Source: Liolophura sinensis (lineage: Eukaryota; Mollusca; Polyplacophora; Chitonida; Chitonidae). From it: a stretch of DNA of 64,000 nucleotides. The translations under genes were made by a program, and so were the position numbers. The DNA is taken from assembly GCF_032854445.1 (NCBI RefSeq), contig NC_088306.1, positions 17,517,764 through 17,581,763 of the forward strand. The letters run 5' to 3'. Below the pieces are notes generated by a model, which worked only from the letters and a program-made list of their open reading frames with translations, had not been told where the DNA came from and ran no database searches. This document shows, one piece after another, positions 24,469 through 63,901 of the stretch (position 1 is the stretch's first letter; each line of letters begins with the position of its first letter).

Positions 24469-27400
24469 CTGCAAAAAAACAAGACAAAACACATGTCAAG
24501 TGTGTGAAATGCAAAAATCAATCAAAAACAATTATTTCTGATATGGTACTTACATTAGAGAGAATTTAAAAGTAACAAGGCAGAAACACAACTCCACATA
24601 TGATAATGCAAATTACAAACAGAAGGAAACTGCCTATGTATCATTCAGAAAAAGCAGTAAATTTTGTTGCATGATGGGGTCAATAAACAACCAATACGGT
24701 AAATGCCCTAGAGTTTCACATGTGAGTTTCTGTCATTTACTTTCGCACAATCTGAGTTGGCGGCAAGACGGCAGAAGAGAATGATTAGCTCCCCACCTCC
24801 ACCCCACCTGTTTCAGTACCCCGCACTTGGCAGCTCTGGGCGCTAATCCTTGCCACGTGGGGTCAAGTCACTGACAGAGAGGTGTGCAGGTTTCCCAAAT
24901 CGTAGGCCTGCAGGAACATCTCTAAATATACCGATGAATGAAATCGAAGAAAGAATTAAGACAGACGATGTCTATTACAAACCTTTAAATTCCAAACACT
25001 GTCTGAAAGCATGACCACGCCAAAAAAGGAATGTACATGCACAATGTATTCTGCAGATGAATTGATTATTCGGGTTAGGCCTACGTGAAAGTCACCTCAC
25101 ACCGTTATCTGGTGAACGATTGTCTGCTGAGAGCCCTCATTATACAACGAATATGTGTACAAATGGATTTCACTAAAAAATATCTCTTGTCAGCTTCCTG
25201 TGTCCATGTATTTCCAAATTAGTACTGGTATGTCAGTCTACATGCACATTTTGTTTTGTTACACTCCAAACTGTCCTCCTATTGCAGAAGAGTTACCTTT
25301 CCCACGTTTTGAAATCGGGAATCTCCCCATTAAACACGGAAAACATAGTTTCTGAAAGCAACCATGAGTAACTTTGACCCCTTTACAGTAGCACTGTGTG
25401 CGGAGTTCACCACATCAGGAGTCAGACAGGATTTGTTCCTGTTGTTGACAGATTAGAAGTTCACACCACACTGATTGGCTATACATCAAAATAAAGTACA
25501 TGTTTGACGACTACCAGTATGCAAATATGCCCAGGTGTCGCCAGTGACAGGTAAGATCATTTTGATGCCTTTCTTGGCAAAAATTACGCCATCAACGAGT
25601 GTAATGGACACGTGGACTGTAAGTTGTCGCTCTAAACGCAGTTTGATTCATGACCTGCTGGTAACTGGCAAGAGAAGATTTGTGGGGTGCTATATTCTAT
25701 TATAGTTTAGTACATGAAGAGCTCTGAATGCATATTAAGGGATATCTGACATGCCACTTCACACGTGTAAAGCTACTAGATGGTCACATTCAAGTTCATC
25801 GATCTCCAGAGAGTTTTCTCCTGAATTCCCTTTCATCATTTAATGGCGACCATGAAAGGATCAAGATGCACCTTTTGTGAAGAAAACTAAATTCAATATG
25901 ATTAAAACTGAGAAAAAGATGAACTGTTGGTGGCAGGAGCATAAACTGACTGCTCAGTGAAACGTGAGTGGACTGTCCATATAAGCCCTGACCACTGTCG
26001 ATGCTCTGCCGCGGCGCATAGTCAGTCAGAACCACAATCAACGCTAGGAATCCTGGGATACACCTTACGAGTCCCATGGTGAAAATTTACTTCATTTACC
26101 GTAATACAGGCCACTGCCTTCTCTGAAATACATACATGTAACACTATATATACAGGAGCCATATATAGACATCCTTGTGACAGCTGACTCACATTGTTGA
26201 AATTCAAATGCTTCCTGTTTGGGTACACATCGGTAGGTCAGTTAGCTTGACCAATCAGTGATAAACCCCTGACTCGTACAATGGCTTTTCCATAACAATC
26301 AAAGACCTGGAATCTTGTGATATTCACGTGTTTGTAAATGTCACATTTTATCTGACACACAGAAAGTTTTGATACAAGCAACATGTGACTTTTTGTTTAC
26401 TTTTCTTTTAACAGTGGGAATTGCAACATCAAACAAAATATCACTTTACTTTTGGAAAATAATGTACATTGGTCCCAATTAATTCAATATTCCTTGATTC
26501 TAATAGTATGAAAATAATTATTGTATAGGATTTTATCGCAGTACTTCAGATGATTTCACCTAGATGGCACTGGACATGATGCTCCAATCAGTCCCAGTAC
26601 ACTGACACCAGACAGGATGCCCCATCCAGTCCCAGTATGCTGACACAAGACAGGATGCCCCAACCAGTCCCAGTACACTGACACCAGACAGGATGCCCCA
26701 ACCAGTCCCAGTATACTGACACAAGACAGGATGCCCCAACCAGTCCCAGTATGCTGACACCAGACAGGATGCCCCAACCAGTCCCAGTACACTGACACCA
26801 GACAGGATGCCCCAACCAGTCCCAGTACACTGACACCAGACACGATGCTCCATCCTGTCCCAGTATACTGACACCAGACATGATGCCCCAACCAGTCCCA
26901 GTATACTGACACCAGGCACGATGACCCAACCAGTATGTGCCAAGCCTAACAAGTACAGTGCCAAGAGTGCTGATTTTAAGATGTCAGGTATACATGCATT
27001 ATTTGGCTAGGTACTTAACCCTGAATCTCCCTCTTTGTGGGGGCCTCCGTGGCTCAGTCGGTTAGCGCGCTAGCGCAGCGTAATGACCCAGGAGCCTCTC
27101 ACCAATGCGGTTGCTGTGAGTTCAAGTCCAGCTCATGCTGGCTTCCTCTCCGGCCGTAAGTGGGAAGGTCTGACAGCAACCTGTGGATGGTCGTGGGTTT
27201 CCCCCGGGCTGTGCCCGGTTTCTACCTACCATAATGCTGGCCGCCGTCGTATAAGTGAAATATTCTTGAGTACGGCGTAAAACACCAATCAAAAAAAAAA
27301 AAAAAAAAAATCCCTCTTTGTGTGGTGGACATTCCACTCTACTGCAGTGCATAAGGATCCTAGGGAATAACTGAGGTGTAGTTTTGACAATTTCTGGTAT

Positions 27401-35721: not shown

Positions 35722-35875
35722 CTTCAGGGGCACAATTTCTGAAGCAAATTACCTGTCAAGTCATGGGCTACAACTACAAATGAAAAAAACTAATAATAAT
35801 TACATACATACAGATATATGTATATGTGTATAGCTTCATTTCATTGTTGTTAGTTGTTCACACTGATCAGGAGCT

Positions 35876-36697
35876 ATTGATCTGGGCTCAGGCAGTATGG
35901 ACAGCTCAGCTTCTGAGGGTCACCCCTACTATTGATCTGGGCTCAGGCAGTATGGACAGCTCAGCTTCTGAGGGTCACCCCTACTATTGATATGGGCTCA
36001 GGCAGTATGGACAGCTCAGCTTCTGAGGGTCACCCCTACTATTGATCTGGGCTCAGGCAGTATGGACAGCTCAGCTTCTGAGGGTCACTCCTACTATTGA
36101 TCTGGGCTCAGGCAGTATGGACAGCTCAGCTTCTGAGGGTCACCCCTACTATTGATCTGGGCTCAGGCAGTATGGACAGCTCAGCTTCTGAGGGTCACCC
36201 CTACTATTGATCTGGGCTCAGGCAGTATGGACAGCTCAGCTTCTGAGGGTCACTCCTACTATTGATCTGGGCTCAGGCAGTATGGACAGCTCAGCTTCTG
36301 AGGGTCACCCCTACTATTGATCTGGGCTCAGGCAGTATGGACAGCTCAGCTTCTGAGGGTCACCCCTACTATTGATCTGGGCTAAGGCAGTATGGACAGC
36401 TCAGCTTCTGAGGGTCACCCCTCCTATTGATCTGGGCTAAGGCAGTATGGACAGCTCAGCTTCTCAGTGTCACCCCTACTATTGATCTGGGCTAAGGCAG
36501 TATGGACAGCTCAGCTTCTGAGGGTCACCCCTACTATTGATCTGGGCTAAGGCAGTATGGACAGCTCAGCTTCTGAGGGTCACCCCTACTATTGATCTGG
36601 GCTAAGGCAGTATGGACGGCTCAGCTTCTGAGGGTCACCCCTACTATTGATCTGGGCTAAGGCAGTATGGACGGCTCAGCTTCTGAGGGTCACTTCT
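35876..36697. repeat. 55-bp tandem array, about 15 copies
   Basis: The unit runs 'attgatctgggctcaggcag', 'tatggacagctcagcttctg', then 'agggtcaccccta'. Copies are nearly identical. The right half carries 'gggctaagg' in place of 'gggctcagg', and the last two have 'gacggctc', showing stepwise spread of variants. It ends about 140 bp upstream of the scramblase exon 1 acceptor. Confidence 0.97.
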
Positions 36698-54399: not shown

Positions 54400-54960
54400 A
54401 CCAGACTTGTAGTCAGAATCCTATGGCATGCCTAGTCAATACCGCTTTGGCACTTAATTGTAGACAGAACAGGCCTGTGGCACGTGGACATATAGTCTGA
54501 ACCCCATGGTACACAAAGTCAAAACGGAGCCTCCGTGGTCAAGGGCGTCAGCACGTCAGCGAGGCGCAATGACCCAGGAGCCTCTCACCAGTGCAGTCGC
54601 TGTGAGTTCAAGTCCAGATCATGCTGGCTTCCTCTCCAGCGGTTTGCCCCAGGCTCTGCCTGGTTTCCTCCCACCATAACGCTGTCCGCTGTCATATAAG
54701 TGAAATATTGTTGTGTATGGTGTAAAACATCAATCAAACAAATAAATAAATAAATAAATAAACATAGTTAAAACCTTTTGGCACCTATAGTCAGAAACCC
54801 ATCCCACTTGTAGTCAGGACCCTATGGCACCTGTAGTCAGAACCCTACATGGCACTTGTAGTCATTACCTTGTGGTACATGTAGACAGAACCTTGTGGTA
54901 CGTACACAGAGCGCCTGTGTCACTTGTAGTCAGAATCCTTTGGCACTTTTATTTATAATC
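54400..54960. repeat. Loose array of 'gtagtcagaaccctatggca' motifs, split by a SINE
   Basis: Irregular copies of a roughly 30-bp unit occur before 54525 and after 54762. SINE family 1 at 54526 appears to have inserted into the array. Confidence 0.7.
54526..54762 (+). mobile_element. SINE family 1, full length with short internal deletion
   Basis: Head 'gagcctccgtggtcaagggc', B box, body lacking the segment around 'gtgggaaggtctgccagcaa', and a tail with six AAAT units. Confidence 0.9.
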
Positions 54961-55868: not shown

Positions 55869-55940
55869 ATGCAGGATGTCATAAACGCCGTTAAGGGGAC
55901 AGCGCGAGGTGTGGCAGAGTACTGGACCCCAGTTTTAAAG
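55869..55940 (+). CDS. ATG3: ATG3 exon 1
   Basis: Encodes the 24-residue membrane-binding helix, ending TPVLK at donor AAG|gtaatt, phase 0. The ATG context is aaaaATGC; it matches the start of known ATG3 proteins. Confidence 0.95.
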
Positions 55941-58900
55941 GTAATTCTGTGGTGCAGGATTCGGTGGTTAAATTTCAGATTTTCCCTTGTGATCCCGTGC
56001 AATTTGACAGGTGGGCGGATACGGTGACCCGTATTTATTGACATAGGCGTTACGGTTTACTGACCCCTTAACTGGCAATACATGCCTAAATAGGAAGCAC
56101 AGCTGGTACCTGGCTGTCTCTTGGTTATCTGTCAGTGTCTGAGCCTCACTCAGCCCGTGTGGTCCGGAAGGCCTACTGACGGTAGAAAGAAGATTATCGC
56201 CTGTCCGGCTATCGTCTGATGAGTCAGTATCAAATGACCGTTAGTTGTCACGATACCACACTGCAGGAACAGTTGGTTAGAGCTAAAAAGTAGATTTGTA
56301 CAAAACTGGGGAATTTTCAACTAGCAGTTGTTTTCATATTGTAGAGTGACATCAATTCATTGAAGTAGCAGCTTTTGAGAATGAACATCTGAAAAGGGGC
56401 TCATTGACTAACTAAAGCATCCAAAATTTATTTCATTTATTTATTTGATTGGTGTTTTATGGCATACTCCAATATATTTCACTTATACAATGGTGGCCAG
56501 CATTATGGTGAGAGAAAACCAGGCAGAGCTTGAGGGAAACCGGTGACCAGCCACAGGTCAACTGCTGAAAATTGTAGGCATTTAGACAAAGCAAGGAAAC
56601 CGGAGAGGGACGGGATGGGATGTGTCTGTGGGTTTGTGTAAGACACCATGTTGTGACATATTTATGTTTGTCTTGAAAAAACATAATCAAGGAAGAAGGA
56701 AATATAACAGACTCAGCAGATTTTTAGTTTTGTGACCTAGTAAAGGTGCAAGCCAGATCAGTGTGTTCAGTGGTGTTGGGCTTCCATCAACCCATATTCA
56801 GTCAGATTAGGGGTGTAATTAATGTGAATGAGATGGGTAAGCAGTAGGGTATGAAATATAAAAAAATAATGATATCCCCTTTGCGTAGGCCTGTGAACAG
56901 TAGGTTTATGCAGTGTATCACAAGCTTAAAAGATATAGCAAATTAAGAAATTTTCTTTTTGCGATATTCAAAAATGACTTAAATTGCACATTTCAGAAAC
57001 ATTTTTAAAAGTAACTTTTAATTGACAGCGATGTGATTTTCAGACAGTATCACATTGTTCCAGTTTTTATTCCTCCATGTACAATACTTCAAGACAGTTC
57101 ATGCAACATATCATCTTCCCTTAGCATTAAAGGGCCGTACCGATCTGATAAGTGAAATATTCTTGGGTACACCAATCAAATAAATAAATAAAACCATTGA
57201 GGAAAATTCCAGCAGCACGCCACTAGCCTGCCACCCAGTTGTTGACCTGTGATGCTCACAGTAACTGAACCTAACACATTTTATAGTTAGATGTATTAAT
57301 GAAGATTATCCAGTATTGGAGCACCTTTCAGAAAATTTAGCCTGTGTAGCACTGTAGACTGGATAATTACATTTTATACATCTACAAGGAAATTATAGGC
57401 CTATGAATGAACAACACCATTATTGCCCTTCAGTCATTAGGACACACATGGCGATGGTTCAAACATTGGGCTGGGTATTAGTAGATTCCATCTCTTATGG
57501 TCCGCAAGGCCTTGATGACTATAAGAAGCTTGTGTGAACGGTTATCCTGTCTAATGTTTGTTCAAGCCAACTTGTCTTCAACCATTATGGTGTACATATC
57601 TGTACATCACATGTGGGAAGGTTTGTCAGTAACTGATCATCCTATTAGTGAAAAATTCTTCAGTTTGGCTTTGTCATTTTGTGATTTATAAATCATGTAC
57701 ATGTGGTTTGTCAATAACTTGTCAAAGGGTTGGTAGTTTATGTTTGGTATTTTGGTCTCCTCTGCCCATAAACTGATCATCGCATTAGTGAAAAATTCTT
57801 CAGTTTGGCATTTGTCATTTTGTGATTTGTAAATCACATACATGTGGGAAGGTTTGTCAGTAATTTGCCGAAGGGTTGGTGGTTTACGCTTGGCACTTTG
57901 GTCTCCTCTGCCCATAAACTGAACATCGTATTAGTGAAAAATTCTTCAGTTTGGATTTGTCATTTTGTGATTTATAAATCACATACATGTGGTTTGTCAG
58001 TAACTTGTCAAAGGGTTGGTAGTTTATGTTTGGTATTTTTGTCTCCTCTGCCCATAAACTGATCATCGCATTAGTGAAAAATTCTTCAGTTTGGCATTTG
58101 TCATTTTGTGATTTGTAAATGACATACATGTGGGAAGGTTTGTCAGTAATTTGCCGAAGGGTTGGTGGTTTAGGCTTGGCACTTTTGTCTCCTCTGCCCA
58201 TAAACTGATCATCATATTAGTGAAAAATTCTTCAGTTTGGCTTTGTCATTTTGTGATTTATAAATCACATACATGTGGTTTGTCAGTAACTTGTCAAAGG
58301 GTTGGTAGTTTATGTTTGGTATTTTTGTCTCCTCTGCCCATAAACTGATCATCATATTAGTGAAAAATTCTTCAGTTTGGCTTTGTCATTTTGTGATTTA
58401 TAAATCACATACATGTGGTTTGTCAGTAACTTGTCAAAGGATTGGTAGTTTATGTTTGGTATTTTGGTCTCCTCTGCCCATAAACTGATCATTATATTAG
58501 TGAAAAATTCTTCAGTTTGGCTTTGTCATTTTGTGATTTATAAATCACATACATGTGGTTTGTGAGTAACTTGTCAAAGGGTTGGTAGTTTATGTTTGGT
58601 ATTTTGGTCTCCTCTGCCCATAAACTGATCATCATATTAGTGAAAAATTCTTCAGTTTGGCTTTTGTCATTTTCTGATTTGTAAATCACATACATGTGGG
58701 AAGGTTTGTCAGTAACTTGCCAAAGGGTTGGTGGTTTACGCTTGGCACTTTGGTCTCCTCTGCCCATAAACTGAACATCGTATTAGTGAAAAATTCTTCA
58801 GTTTGGATTTGTCATTTTGTGATTTATAAATCACATACATGTGGTTTGTCAGTAACTTGTCAAAGGATTGGTAGTTTATGTTTGGTATTTTTGTCTCCTC

Positions 58901-61900
58901 TGCCCATAAACTGATCATCGAATTAGTGAAAAATTCTTCAGTTTGGATTTGTCATTTTGTGATTTATAAATCGACATACATGTGGGAAGGTTTGTCAGTA
59001 ACTTGCCAAAGGGTTGGTGGTTTACGCTTGGCACTTTGGTCTTCTCTGCCCATAAACTGAACATCATATTAGTGAAAAATTCTTCAGTTTGGCTTTGTCA
59101 TTTTGTGATTTATAAATCACATATATGTATGTGGTTTGTGAGTAACTTGTCAAAGGGTTGGTAGTTTATGTTTGGTATTTTGGTCTCCTCTGCCCATAAA
59201 CTGAACATCATATTAGTGAAAAATTCTTCAGTTTGGCTTTTGTCATTTTGTGATTTGTTAATCACATACATGTGGGAAGGTTTGTCAGTAACTTGCCAAA
59301 GGGTTTCTGGTTTACCCTTGACACTTTAACCTCCTCCACCTATAAACTGATTATCGTATTGGTGAAAAATTTTTGAGTATGGCATTTGGCAGTTTGTGAT
59401 TTTTAAATCACATGCATGTACATGTGGGAAGGTTTGTCAGTAACTTGCCAAAGGGTTGGTGGTTTACCCTTGACACTTTAGCCTCCTGAAAAAATGAGGT
59501 TGTAAAATTCTTCAGTTTGGCATTTTTCACAAATATTTACAATGAACAGTATGACGAACTTAAAGTCTAAGGATGTTTATATTGACTCAGGCTGATGTCT
59601 GTACTATTAACTCGAGATGTGTCTGAATACATTACATAGATGTGTTAGTGTGAATTTCATACAAGTGTCATCTGTGCTTGATCCACAGGAATCAAAGTTC
59701 AAGGAAACAGGTGTGATTACCCCTGAAGAGGTATGTTAAATATAGTGGTTGCCATACGGACCAATGAAAAATGTAGACCTAAAATTTCTCCCAGAAAAAG
59801 GCATTTTTGAGGCAAATGAATGTCAGAAAATATTATTTTTGGTGCTGAAAAATTACAATTTTCCAATAGAATACCATTCAGTGTTCCAAGCAAACCTGAA
59901 AACACCTTTCTAAAATCAGTGGAACTGTCAGAATCAGGAAAAATGGGCAAATTAGACATGGACAAAATTTAAGGAAAACAAGAGTTATATCCAGAATTTT
60001 GTGTAGAGGACTTCAATTCCACATTTTGTGTTAATTGAAAGGCATTTGAAAAAAGTAGGTTCCATTCAGTTAAATACAATTTCCTAAAATAGGAAAGAAG
60101 CATTTTTAAAAAGGCAATCAATTTAAGGATTTAATCTTTCCTACCAATTTTTTCATGATGTTTGAGAAAAGACAAATTGAGACCATGCAGCACATATATA
60201 CATCATAGGAGCCACAGATAGGACCATCTGATCACAAATAGCCTTATTTGCAGAGCCATGGATTCATTTGCTGTTTAATTGTGTTTCAGTTTGTGGCAGC
60301 TGGTGATCACCTTGTCCACCACTGTCCCACCTGGCAGTGGGCTGCAGGCGATGAAACCAAGACAAAACCTTACCTCCCTAAAGATAAACAATTCCTCATC
60401 ACTAGAAATGGTATGTAGTTGTATAGGCTTCATATAACCTATATATTTGTGTTTATGATGATGTATTTGTATATTACATTATTCATGACCCAACTGACAA
60501 TTATTATTCGTAATAGTTTGTGATTTGATGTCACTCAAAGTGAACTTGAAAAGGTCAAATGGTGGGGAATCATCTCTTTGGGGGGTTTTAACAACAACGT
60601 TGATCTTTGTACATAAGTGACATTAAATCAAAGAGATATTACCACTGGATCAGTCACAGGCGTTATTTTATCTTCTTACATGCAACAGGTACTTCTGTCT
60701 TCTGTATTTATGGCTATAAGATCTTCTCACCTATCATGTTAACTGTAACTAGTCATGATTTAAAATGAAATACCCTAAATGAGCTAAAATTTCACCCACA
60801 GTAGTGCATTTTTAGAGGCCAGTAAATGTTACAAATATTATTTTGTAGTGCTGAAACTTTCAGTAGAATATTATCCCATGTTCCAAGCAAACCTGACAAC
60901 ACCTTTCTAAAATCAATAGAACTCTCAGAATCAGGAAATGTGGGCAAGTTAATCATGGATGAAATTTATTGTCATTTAGGGTATGAATGTTAACATGTTT
61001 TAAGTTTAATGTTTACCTTTCCAGGACATAATTTTTCAACAAAAAAAAGGAAAGGGAAGAAAACCTGTTATATAAGATAGTGTCTATATTGCAGCATGTT
61101 TGTGTTTAGCATGTTTAATGAAGTGGACTGCCAAATTTTGGTGTGTTTCAGGAGTAATTTACAGTTAGCAGACATTACATTAAGTGCTGTAATTTAATAC
61201 TTCCTCCAATGCAACATTTAGTTTCCTTGTTCCAATATTGTATATTGTATTATGTAACAATCCTTGTCTTCCTGTGAATTCATGTCCCACTCAAGGGGGA
61301 AAGATTAAAGACATTATAGGATCCAATGCTCCGAAATATTTGTGTTGGCTTCTGTCTAACTATCCTAAGGAGACATACTGAGTGTGAGATATATCCGGGT
61401 GCAGCACAATGACCCAGAAGCCTCTCACCAATGCGGTCGCTGTGAGTTGAAGTCCATCTCATGCTGGCTTCCTCTCCGGCCTTACGTGGGAAGGTCCTGA
61501 TTTATTCCCTGGTCTCTGCCGGGTTTCCTCCCACCGTAATGCTGGTTGCCGTCTTATAAGTGAAATATTCTTGAGTACGGCATATAACACCAATCGATTA
61601 AATAAATAAATAAAAGATAGATCCAGAGTTAAATATTTAAATTTAATCTTTATTTTTATTTCAATTTTTGCACGTGTACAATGTAGTGCCATGTTACAAA
61701 CGGGTCAAGCAAATGGATAACCATCAGGAAGACCAAGAGAAAGTAATAGAGGAGGAGGATGGGGATGGAGGATGGGTGGACACACACCATTATGCAGGTA
61801 ATGTAACTACAGTGTATGAGTGTCACACATCATTAAGCAGGTAATGTGATGATAGGTGGACACATCATTATGCAGGTAATGTAATGATAAATGGACACAC

Positions 61901-63901
61901 ATCATTATGTGAGTAATGTAATGATAGGTGGTCACACATCATTATGTGAGTAATGTAATGATAGGTGGACAATATACATCATTACACAGGTTAAGTAATG
62001 ATAGGTGAACACACATCATTATACAGGTAATGCAATGATAGGTGGACAATACACATTATGCAGGTAATGTAATGATAGGTGAATGCACATCGTTATGCAA
62101 GTGATGTAATGATAGGTGGACACACGTCGTTATGCAGGTGATGTAATGATAGGTGGACACACATCATTATACAGGTAATGTAATGATAGGTGAACACACA
62201 TCATTATACAGGTGATGTAATGATAGGTGGACGCACATTGTTATGCAGGTAATGTAATGAGAGATGGACACACATCATTATGCAGGTAATGTAATGATAG
62301 GTGGACACATATCATTATACAGGTAATGTAATGATAGGTGGACACACATCATTATACAGGCAATGTAATGATAGGTGAACATACATCATTACACAGGTAA
62401 TGTAATGATAGATGGACACACATCATTACACAGGTAATGTAATGATAGATGGACACACATCATTACACAGGTAATGTAATGATAGGTGGACAAACATCAT
62501 TATACAGGTAATGCAGTGATAGATGGACACACATCATTACACAGGTAGTGTAACGATAGGTGGACACACATCATTACACAGGTAGTGTAACAATAGGTGG
62601 ACAATACACATTATTCAGGTAATGTAATGATAGGTGAATACACATCACTATGCAAGTGATGTAATGATAGGTGAATGCACATTGTTATGCAGGTAATGTA
62701 ATGAGAGATGGACACACATCATTATGCAGGTAATGTAATGATAGGTGGACACATATCATTATACAGGTAATGTAATGATAGGTGAACATACATCATTACA
62801 CAGGTAATGTAATGATAGATGGACACACATCATTACACAGGTAATGTAATGATAGATGGACACACATCATTACACAGGTAATGTAATGATAGGTGGACAA
62901 ACATCATTACACAGGTAATGTAATGATAGGTGGACAAACATCATTATACAGGTAATGCAGTGATAGATGGACACACATCATTACACAGGTAGTGTAACGA
63001 TAGGTGGACACACATCGTTACACAAGTAGTGTAACAATAGGTGGACAATACACATTATTCAGGTAATGTAATGATAGGTGAATGCACATCACTATGCAAG
63101 TGATGTAATGATAGGTGGACACACATCGTTATGCAAGTGATGTAATGATAGGTGAACACACATCGTTATGCAGGTGATGTAATGATAGGTGGACACACAT
63201 CATTATACAGGTAATGTAATGATAGGTGAACAAACATCATTATACAGGTAATGTAATGAGAGGTGGACACACATCATCATGCAGGTAATGTAATGATAGG
63301 TGGACACACATCATTATACAGGTAATGTAATGATAGGTGGACACACATCATTATACAGGCAATGTAATGATAGGTGAACATACATCATTACACAGGTAAT
63401 GTAATGATAGATGGACACACATCATTACACAGGTAATGTAATGATAGATGGACACACATCATTACACAGGTAATGTAATGATAGGTGGACAAACATCATT
63501 ACACAGGTAGTGTAACAATAGGTGGACACACATCATTACACGGGTAGTGTAACAATAGGTGGACACACATCGTTATGCAGGTGATGTTATGATAGGTGGA
63601 CACACATCCGTATACAGGTGATGTAATGAGAGATGGACACACATCGTTATGCAGGTAATGTAATGATAGGTGAACACACGTCATTATGCAGGTAATGTAA
63701 TGATAGATGGACACACATCATTATACAGGTAATGTAATGATAGGTGTACACACATATACATATATAATGGGTTTATCAGAAGAGATTACTGATCAAATTT
63801 CAGCGAATTTGCATACATGTTCTAGTAATTGTGATATTCTTGCAGATTCCACGACAACATCAGTACAAGAATCCATAGCAGAGATGACACTAGATTCAAA
63901 A
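55869..63901 (+). CDS. ATG3: ATG3, E2-like autophagy conjugating enzyme, N-terminal part
   Basis: Five exons (55869-55940, 59689-59730, 60290-60410, 61687-61797, 63846-63901) encode the first 134 residues; the gene runs off the right edge. ATG3 receives ATG8-family proteins (LC3/GABARAP) from ATG7 and transfers them to phosphatidylethanolamine on growing autophagosome membranes. [19 protein letters not shown] is the N-terminal amphipathic helix that senses curved membrane. [20 protein letters not shown] and HHCPTWQW open the E2-like core. [10 protein letters not shown] and [15 protein letters not shown] match human ATG3 closely. The acidic segment just after is the start of the flexible region that binds ATG7. 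The catalytic cysteine and the C-terminal motifs lie outside the window. Introns carry extensive arrays. Confidence 0.97.
56428..56562 (-). mobile_element. SINE family 1, 5'-truncated
   Basis: Reverse tail 'tttatttgattggtgtttta' and body 'ccagcattatggtgagagaa', ending 'accagccacaggtcaac'. Confidence 0.88.
57134..57193 (+). mobile_element. SINE family 1 tail fragment
   Basis: 'ccgatctgataagtgaaata' and 'ttcttgggtacaccaatcaa' followed by AAATAAATAAATAAA. Confidence 0.75.
57600..59510. repeat. Satellite array, unit about 143 bp, derived from SINE family 1
   Basis: About 13 copies. Each unit carries 'gggaaggtttgtcagtaact', 'ggtctcctctgcccataaac' and 'attagtgaaaaattcttcag'. These align in order with the SINE body and tail segments 'gggaaggtctgccagcaacc', 'ggtttcctcccaccataatg' and 'gtataagtgaaatattcttg'. 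Two variants (with 'cttgtcaaagggttggtagt' or 'tgccgaagggttggtggttt') are interspersed. Open frames on both strands follow from the repeat and are not genes. Confidence 0.93.
59689..59730 (+). CDS. ATG3: ATG3 exon 2
   Basis: A 42-nt exon behind 'cttgatccacag' encodes [14 protein letters not shown], with donor GAG|gtatgt. Phase 0 at both ends. Confidence 0.96.
59760..59972. mobile_element. MITE family M2, eroded copy
   Basis: The interior 'tgttccaagcaaacctgaaa' and 'acacctttctaaaatcagtg' matches the copy at 60771-60983. The ends ('agacctaaaatttctcccag', 'ggacaaaatttaagg') are diverged. Lies in ATG3 intron 2. Confidence 0.7.
60290..60410 (+). CDS. ATG3: ATG3 exon 3
   Basis: The acceptor 'aattgtgtttcag' precedes [20 protein letters not shown]. 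The exon ends [10 protein letters not shown] plus one base at donor AATG|gtatgt. Confidence 0.97.
60771..60983. mobile_element. MITE family M2
   Basis: The ends 'taccctaaatgagctaaaat' and 'atttattgtcatttagggta' form imperfect inverted repeats bounded by TA. It has no coding capacity. Confidence 0.75.
61397..61614 (+). mobile_element. SINE family 1, slightly truncated
   Basis: From 'gtgcagcacaatgacccaga' through B box and body (with a short deletion after 'gtgggaaggtc') to 'tattcttgagtacggcatat' and an AAAT-repeat tail. Confidence 0.92.
61687..61797 (+). CDS. ATG3: ATG3 exon 4
   Basis: The acceptor 'gtgtacaatgtag' precedes [20 protein letters not shown]. The exon ends [16 protein letters not shown] plus one base at donor GCAG|gtaatg. 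Its last 27 nt ('gatgggtggacacacaccat' and 'tatgcag') are the founder-like copy of the array that follows. Confidence 0.96.
61798..63755. repeat. 37-bp minisatellite, about 50 copies, repeating the exon 4 donor junction
   Basis: The unit is 'gataggtggacacacatcat' followed by 'tatgcaggtaatgtaat'. The exon 4/intron 4 junction itself matches the unit at 34 of 37 positions. Most units keep CAG|GTAATG; some have caggcaatg, caagtgatg or caggtgatg. A longer pattern of about 440 bp (12 units) is visible when 62255-62690 is compared with 62698-63110. It fills nearly all of ATG3 intron 4. Confidence 0.97.
63846..63901 (+). CDS. ATG3: ATG3 exon 5
   Basis: The acceptor 'gtgatattcttgcag' precedes [19 protein letters not shown], with donor AAA|gtaagt. 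It aligns with the region of human ATG3 containing ITLENK. The intron after it runs off the window. Confidence 0.93.

Follow-up and report, generated by a model that had tools for sequence, protein, structure and literature searches.

Intron 4 of the ATG3 gene in the chiton Liolophura sinensis contains a 37-bp minisatellite, the unit of which reproduces the end of exon 4 together with the 5' splice site that follows it. We consider it likely that the array was seeded by this exon-intron junction, grew by the duplication of blocks, persists as a neutral by-product and leaves splicing to the first donor. According to this scheme, a segment of 27 nt of exon and 10 nt of intron across the exon 4/intron 4 junction gave rise to tandem copies that extended into the intron. 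Amplification added about 52 units, and blocks of about 12 units were duplicated afterwards. Of all the copies, the first alone remained coding, because as the real exon end it is under purifying selection.

The array was identified in a window of 64,000 nucleotides (C12:17517764-17581763), and the genome searched comprised 609 Mb. The assembly was published under the name Liolophura japonica, with a reported size of 609.5 Mb, 632 scaffolds and a heterozygosity of 1.24% (PMC11068029), and the species name was reported as corrected to L. sinensis (PMC12441733).

Structure of the ATG3 Gene

The ATG3 gene is located on the + strand and contains 10 exons with a coding sequence of 957 nt for a protein of 318 amino acids. 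Exons 1 to 5 are located in the window and exons 6 to 10 just past it, with exon borders set by protein similarity and splice signals. The coding part of exon 1 (55869-55940), exon 2 (59689-59730), exon 3 (60290-60410) and exon 4 (61687-61797, 111 nt), which codes for a stretch including VPCYKR and is the source of the repeat unit, were placed by tblastn and the spliced coding sequence. Exon 5 (63846-63901, 56 nt), with the acceptor TTCTTGCAG, was placed by the spliced coding sequence, and its tblastn match had an E value of 0.0455 and 95% identity to its own translation. The spliced protein matched profile positions 1 to 193 of the 193 positions in PF03987 (E 2.2e-66), and with 10 exons, 318 residues and the whole of this domain the gene is complete. 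Intron 4 spans positions 61798-63845 (2,048 nt, + strand) according to the exon map and the spliced coding sequence, and its predicted authentic 5' splice site, CAG/GTAATG, places the GTAATG at 61798-61803.

The Junction as the Source of the Array

A 37-bp array at positions 61771-63755 had been proposed from the sequence, and TRF returned the same interval and period with 53.5 copies. A wrap-around alignment divided the array into 53 full units, the first of them the exon unit, and a partial unit of 17 nt. The junction unit at 61771-61807 (+ strand) takes 27 nt from the end of exon 4 and its remaining 10 nt from the start of intron 4, and is in register with the intronic part at 61808-63755 (+ strand), for which TRF, the unit table and the donor counts gave 52 further full units and the partial one. 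The estimate that the junction had been copied about 50 times was thereby supported. The junction 37-mer shared 33 of its 37 positions with the TRF consensus, whereas the 34 of the original prediction was obtained if the common G variant was used in one column. Elsewhere in the window, the best ungapped match to any rotation of the consensus was 25 of 37 upstream on the + strand, 24 upstream on the minus strand and 20 downstream. The position of the exon as the first unit, in register and with an identity far above this background, indicates that the array was seeded by the exon 4/intron 4 junction, as had been suggested.

A tree of the units had been named beforehand as one test that could overturn this origin. 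In the tree, the exon unit was placed inside the array units and clustered with A07, A22, A34, and B05 (support 0.80). It was no outlier, with a mean of 6.1 differences to the other units versus 5.2 between units, and ranked as the 11th most distant of the 53. Only columns 4 and 17, corresponding to a G in the codon for tryptophan and to a single C, set the exon apart from all other units, which points to a single altered founder copy, or to a later change in the exon at column 17.

The heptapeptide GWVDTHH, encoded by the end of exon 4, could be aligned with ATG3 from distant organisms. It is covered by the PDB peptide 8afi_F, and the PDB chain 3vx8_B, ATG3 of Arabidopsis, reads GWLATH there. 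Human ATG3 has GWVDTYH at the corresponding position. Since the exon end is shared with distant ATG3 sequences, the exon is the source of the unit and predates the array. The similarity could instead be secondary, if an unrelated satellite came to lie at exon 4 by chance or if gene conversion from the array had replaced the exon end, and minisatellites are indeed common in this genome. This reading is already contradicted, however, by the in-register identity of the junction far above the rest of the window, by the sharing of the exon stretch with distant ATG3 sequences and by twelve other junctions with the same pattern. Furthermore, in a DNA search of the genome that passes over very common words and restricts scoring to the best candidates, the array was listed at ATG3 and its second copy alone (21 matches listed). 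We therefore assign a secondary similarity next to no credence.

Growth and Divergence of the Units

The longer period of about 440 bp in the original prediction was recovered in the unit comparisons, where units 12 apart (444 bp) had the lowest mean distance among lags 1 to 30, and 6 of the 39 pairs at this lag were identical. This confirms that duplication of 12-unit blocks has taken place.

Each intact unit had been thought to carry the donor CAG/GTAATG. This was an overstatement, as the exact motif was present in 32 of the 52 full array units, although the GT was retained in 50 of them. The number of inferred changes per column was 1.56 for the donor columns versus 1.96 for the others (P 0.32). 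Judged from these patterns, the extra donors in the array seem to have been neither weeded out nor preserved, and the copies look neutral.

A second view of the array was provided by the assembly itself, in which the segment C12:17580625-17591977 recurs with insertions and deletions from position 17592178, after 200 N. The BLAST identity of the two copies with gaps was 91% to 94% over three main pieces, the identity over 11,039 gap-free aligned columns was 97.1%, and the divergence outside repeats was about 2%. The simplest reading is that the two copies represent haplotypes placed side by side in the scaffold, because of the published heterozygosity of 1.24%, the high heterozygosity reported to be common in chitons (PMC12005716) and the gap between the copies; a true tandem duplication would be the less simple alternative. 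The region C12:17580625-17605389 (L011 to L013) contains the 3' half of ATG3 in duplicate, and a gene model built there may show a false second gene.

The second copy begins inside the 37-bp array. Its 22 full units follow one another as they do in the first copy, and the two sets differ at about 23 of 814 positions. The order and near-identity of these units show that the shared part of the array is not hypervariable between the copies; the remainder of the array is absent from one copy. These data also bear on whether the array could be an assembly artefact. The duplication of the downstream region across the 200-N gap suggests that the scaffold is locally faulty, but the second contig independently carries the array with the 22 units in the same order, and the assembly is described as having been built from HiFi reads (PMC11068029), which makes an artefact extremely unlikely.

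Predicted Consequences of the Array Donors

Splicing was simulated from 50 array donors to exon 5, and none of the 50 gave a full-length ATG3 protein. The first array donor, with GT at 61841-61842, yielded a frameshifted product of 162 amino acids, while the other array donors yielded a product of 130 amino acids that ended at the read-through stop TAA at 61842-61844. The donor and the stop (61841-61844, + strand) were placed with the open reading frame list and the splicing simulation, and a stop soon after exon 4 had been anticipated. The notion that the addition of three units would restore the frame is of no use to ATG3, since the TAA terminates all extensions past the first array donor. 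Every simulated array-donor product ended at a stop that preceded the last junction by more than 55 nt, and use of the array donors is thus predicted to be harmful to ATG3.

Such transcripts could serve a function if array donors were used at a regulated rate, so that unproductive ATG3 transcripts acted as a dosage switch for autophagy. The retained GT dinucleotides, the 32 units that share the 9-mer of the authentic donor and the truncation of ATG3 after WVDT in 50 of 50 tested extensions, with a premature stop far before the last junction as this would require, are all compatible with such a switch. On the other hand, the donor columns were no more conserved than the other columns, similarly built arrays were found in unrelated genes (chaperonins, a proteasome gene and RPC1), and mirages in amphioxus, as far as the published accounts describe them, were reported without disturbance of splicing (PMC3087553, PMC3902484). 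We consider a regulatory role of this kind unlikely.

For the preferred reading, in which the array is neutral and the first donor is used, the authentic donor has to be chosen among many near copies. Donor strength was rejected as the selector, as the authentic site tied with 32 copies when scored with a donor matrix. The accessibility of the RNA in predicted structures was also rejected, with array donors being the more accessible in 38 of 52 cases for an 80-nt window and in 22 of 52 cases for a 200-nt window. The feature that distinguished the context of the authentic donor from the array was the density of purines and GAR motifs. A purine-rich and GAR-rich tract in exon 4 (61721-61776, + strand) contained 80% purines and 12.5 GAR per 100 nt, versus 60% and 1.2 in the array. 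Only the last 6 nt of the tract fall inside the repeat unit, and the array has the lower values because the unit begins at 61771, near the end of the tract. With purine richness taken as a proxy for enhancer activity, the tract is a candidate exonic splicing enhancer. We infer that the donor choice is fixed by exon definition: the authentic donor would be favoured by being the first to be transcribed, by the normal size of the exon that it closes and by the enhancer-like tract immediately before it, which is absent from the units.

Other Arrays in ATG3 and in the Window

Two more arrays were associated with exon borders in the part of ATG3 that lies past the window on C12. A 74-bp array ending in exon 6 contained 9 and 11 units in the two copies of the region (L011:1045-1721 and L012:2497-3300), and its units carried variants of the exon 6 acceptor TACTCTGTAG/GAGCCTGCTCC. 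A 53-bp array ending in exon 9 contained about 12 and 13 units (L011:3984-4595 and L012:5574-6206) with TTTGTTGCAG/ACATGCTGATGT or variants thereof, corresponding to the exon 9 acceptor followed by the initial 12 nt of exon sequence. The number of units thus differed by 2 in the 74-bp array and by 1 in the 53-bp array between the presumed haplotypes, while the unit order in the 37-bp array was the same where both copies exist. The direction from exon to array is less certain for exon 6, because the first residues EPAPAAGPAGAQ are absent from the human ATG3 sequence used for comparison.

Three of the four TRF arrays in ATG3 with units longer than 20 bp were located at junctions. The sole exception was a 140/286-bp tandem array in intron 1 (57631-59487), which touches no exon. 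Other minisatellites in the window were located at 481-1860 (39 bp), 26573-26934 (38 bp), and 35874-36693 (55 bp). We also noted a dispersed repeat ending in AAATAAATAAA at 61430-61615 and 54530-54760, which resembles the tails of mollusc SINEs.

Comparison with Mirages and Related Systems

The arrays resemble mirages, tandem duplications of exon-intron boundaries described from amphioxus in the genes for Adh3, globin, troponin C, and PGBD5. Mirages are reported to occur at both 5' and 3' boundaries and, despite the many cryptic signals in them, to leave splicing undisturbed (PMC3087553, PMC3902484). Minisatellites born at boundaries have been put forward as possibly general in cephalochordates (PMC3087553). 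Judged by the sequence features that can be compared, the ATG3 array is of the mirage kind, in a new phylum, the molluscs. The original description of the Adh3 mirage is said to be that of Canestro 2002.

As in amphioxus, the repeats in ATG3 span exon-intron boundaries, namely the donor of exon 4 and the acceptors of exons 6 and 9, and the unit consists of exon and intron parts with a splice signal, here 27 and 10 nt with GT in 50 of 52 units. Both 5' and 3' boundaries are affected, in ATG3 within a single gene. Unit lengths are similar, with 10 to 72 bp and 150 to 160 bp given for amphioxus and 37, 53, and 74 bp observed in ATG3. In amphioxus, copy number differs between haplotypes; in the chiton, the second and third ATG3 arrays differ in unit number between two copies that may be haplotypes. 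The host is a mollusc rather than a cephalochordate, and ATG3 contains about 52 extra units as compared to the 6 and 3 repeat units given for two BflGb6 haplotypes in amphioxus. The presence of arrays at three junctions in one gene is a feature of chiton ATG3 unlike the amphioxus mirages. Somatic length instability is a feature of the amphioxus Adh3 mirage. Splicing in amphioxus was reportedly examined by RT-PCR, whereas the ATG3 arrays are known here from their sequence.

Two other systems are partly similar. The human IFI6 gene reportedly has a minisatellite with a 12-nt unit that adds four residues, of which several donors are said to be used in the mRNA with a functional protein as the outcome. 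IFI6 and ATG3 both have a minisatellite at an exon end with a 5' splice site in each unit, but the 37-nt unit of ATG3 is not divisible by three, and the full-length protein resulted from 0 of the 50 simulated array donors. In a model for intron gain by tandem duplication of segments bearing AG/GT, as outlined in PMC3087553, the duplicated segment also carries splice signals; in ATG3, by contrast, an existing intron has grown. Among titles and abstracts in the literature, which cover subscription papers poorly and so leave absence unproven, we found no boundary repeats of this kind outside amphioxus, and the portion consulted of a study of intronic minisatellites in earthworm metallothionein genes (PMC12783039) did not describe boundary repeats.

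Junction Arrays Elsewhere in the Genome

Ten junctions beyond ATG3, distributed over nine genes, look alike in having an array at an exon end (L037, L045, L048, L072, L019, L022, L023, L025, L027, and L028). This gives a total of 13 junctions in 10 genes, 7 of which have a family or structure match and 3 of which are known only by an open frame or a presumed resemblance. The genes among the ten include CCT genes, a proteasome gene, a GCNT-like enzyme, RPC1, a GH31 glucosidase, and three weakly named exons. Across the ten exon tails compared, ATG3 included, each matched its own array best, with a mean identity of 0.91 (lowest 0.73), versus a mean of 0.47 (highest 0.65) for other arrays. The genome thus appears to carry at least a dozen other arrays of the mirage type.

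Six of the 16 donor arrays inspected on C1 started at the end of an apparent coding exon that matched the unit sequence. Three of these genes encode the GCNT-like enzyme (PF02485), RPC1 of RNA polymerase III (PDB 7a6h, E 2.4e-8), and the GH31 glucosidase (PF01055). We take L025 to resemble DERA and L027 to resemble an ARFGEF/MON2-like protein, names for which neither Pfam nor PDB gave support, and L028 was an open frame with no match in Pfam. A start at an exon end was not demonstrated for the other 10 arrays: for L015, L018, L024, and L029 the retrieved sequence started at the array edge or no more than about 120 bases from it, and no clear exon was seen at the array in L016, L017, L020, L021, L026, and L030.

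Other loci were chosen by protein family, regardless of repeats. The best 24 of the 50 listed matches to the chaperonin domain PF00118, with 1.5-kb flanks and a total of 66,981 distinct bases, contained 14 distinct arrays (17 rows, 3 of which were duplicated; TRF score of at least 80), 3 of which span a donor. Of the remaining 26 matches, 11 were inside the first loci, 2 were left out and 13 were fetched, which yielded 2 arrays, none spanning a donor. In total, 3 of 16 arrays in the chaperonin genes span a donor. A 41-bp array in the chaperonin gene at L046 (989-1531 on the gene strand) abuts the exon acceptor with no clear entry and was left uncounted. The 21 listed matches to PF00227, with 500-bp flanks, gave a single array (score of at least 60), which overlaps the end of the proteasome exon in L072 in such a way that the donor is not placeable.

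Under a rough model of uniform seeding, in which the exon counts and lengths are approximate, 1.44 junction arrays were expected and 4 were observed (Poisson P 0.058); if the other three arrays of ATG3 were added, the values were 1.80 and 6 (P 0.010). The excess over random seeding is suggestive but not decisive. More than half of the unit consisted of exon sequence in 9 of 10 donor arrays (P 0.02, small numbers), with the value for RPC1 set by hand from the tail matching, that for L037 ranging from 0.64 to 0.86 by method, and L072 dropped. The DERA-like L025, with an exon share of 0.30, went against the trend.

Genome-wide, three occurrences of AGGTAAGT at a spacing of 22 to 52 gave 566 overlapping matches versus 397 for the reversed motif. 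When distinct arrays were counted by eye in roughly the first 100 listed places per motif, the donor motif gave 16 (C1, 0.5 to 93.4 Mb) and the reversed motif 15 (C1, 3.1 to 90.4 Mb), and a genome-wide enrichment of donor-bearing arrays is not supported by these numbers. They also bear on the reading that the U1-like sites act as a sink or hold back premature polyadenylation in this long intron, with the array selected for U1 binding. The 50 array units in ATG3 that keep the GT lie within 2 kb, as such a sink would have it, but the near-equal counts of distinct arrays over about the same stretch of C1, despite the raw difference of 566 to 397, the lack of excess conservation at the donor columns and the arrays at acceptor junctions, which would need a separate explanation, make selection for U1 binding very unlikely.

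The junction arrays are thus recurrent, and a preference for junctions goes beyond the evidence. A more far-reaching reading is that minisatellites in this genome arise preferentially at splice junctions, through seeding coupled to splicing or transcription that would also lengthen introns in two distantly related phyla, molluscs and cephalochordates; segments across a junction would then be duplicated at a higher rate than other parts of introns, and the break on the intron side would usually fall a few nt past the donor. We regard this whole as possible but rather doubtful. The repeated finding in a chiton means that minisatellites born at boundaries arise in distant animals, and they may be a general route of intron growth. 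Each junction array is also a natural test of 5' splice-site choice, with dozens of identical donors downstream of the one that the protein needs, and the chiton supplies replicates with different unit lengths, both in frame and out of frame.

It was noted that the unit length is divisible by three in four of the junction arrays, namely L023 (39 bp), L028 (36 bp), L037 (66 bp), and L045 (60 bp). Unlike in ATG3, use of the array donors at these loci could yield a longer protein in the same frame.

Eight clustered matches to the haemocyanin beta-sandwich domain PF14830, which is typical of molluscs, were also found in the genome.
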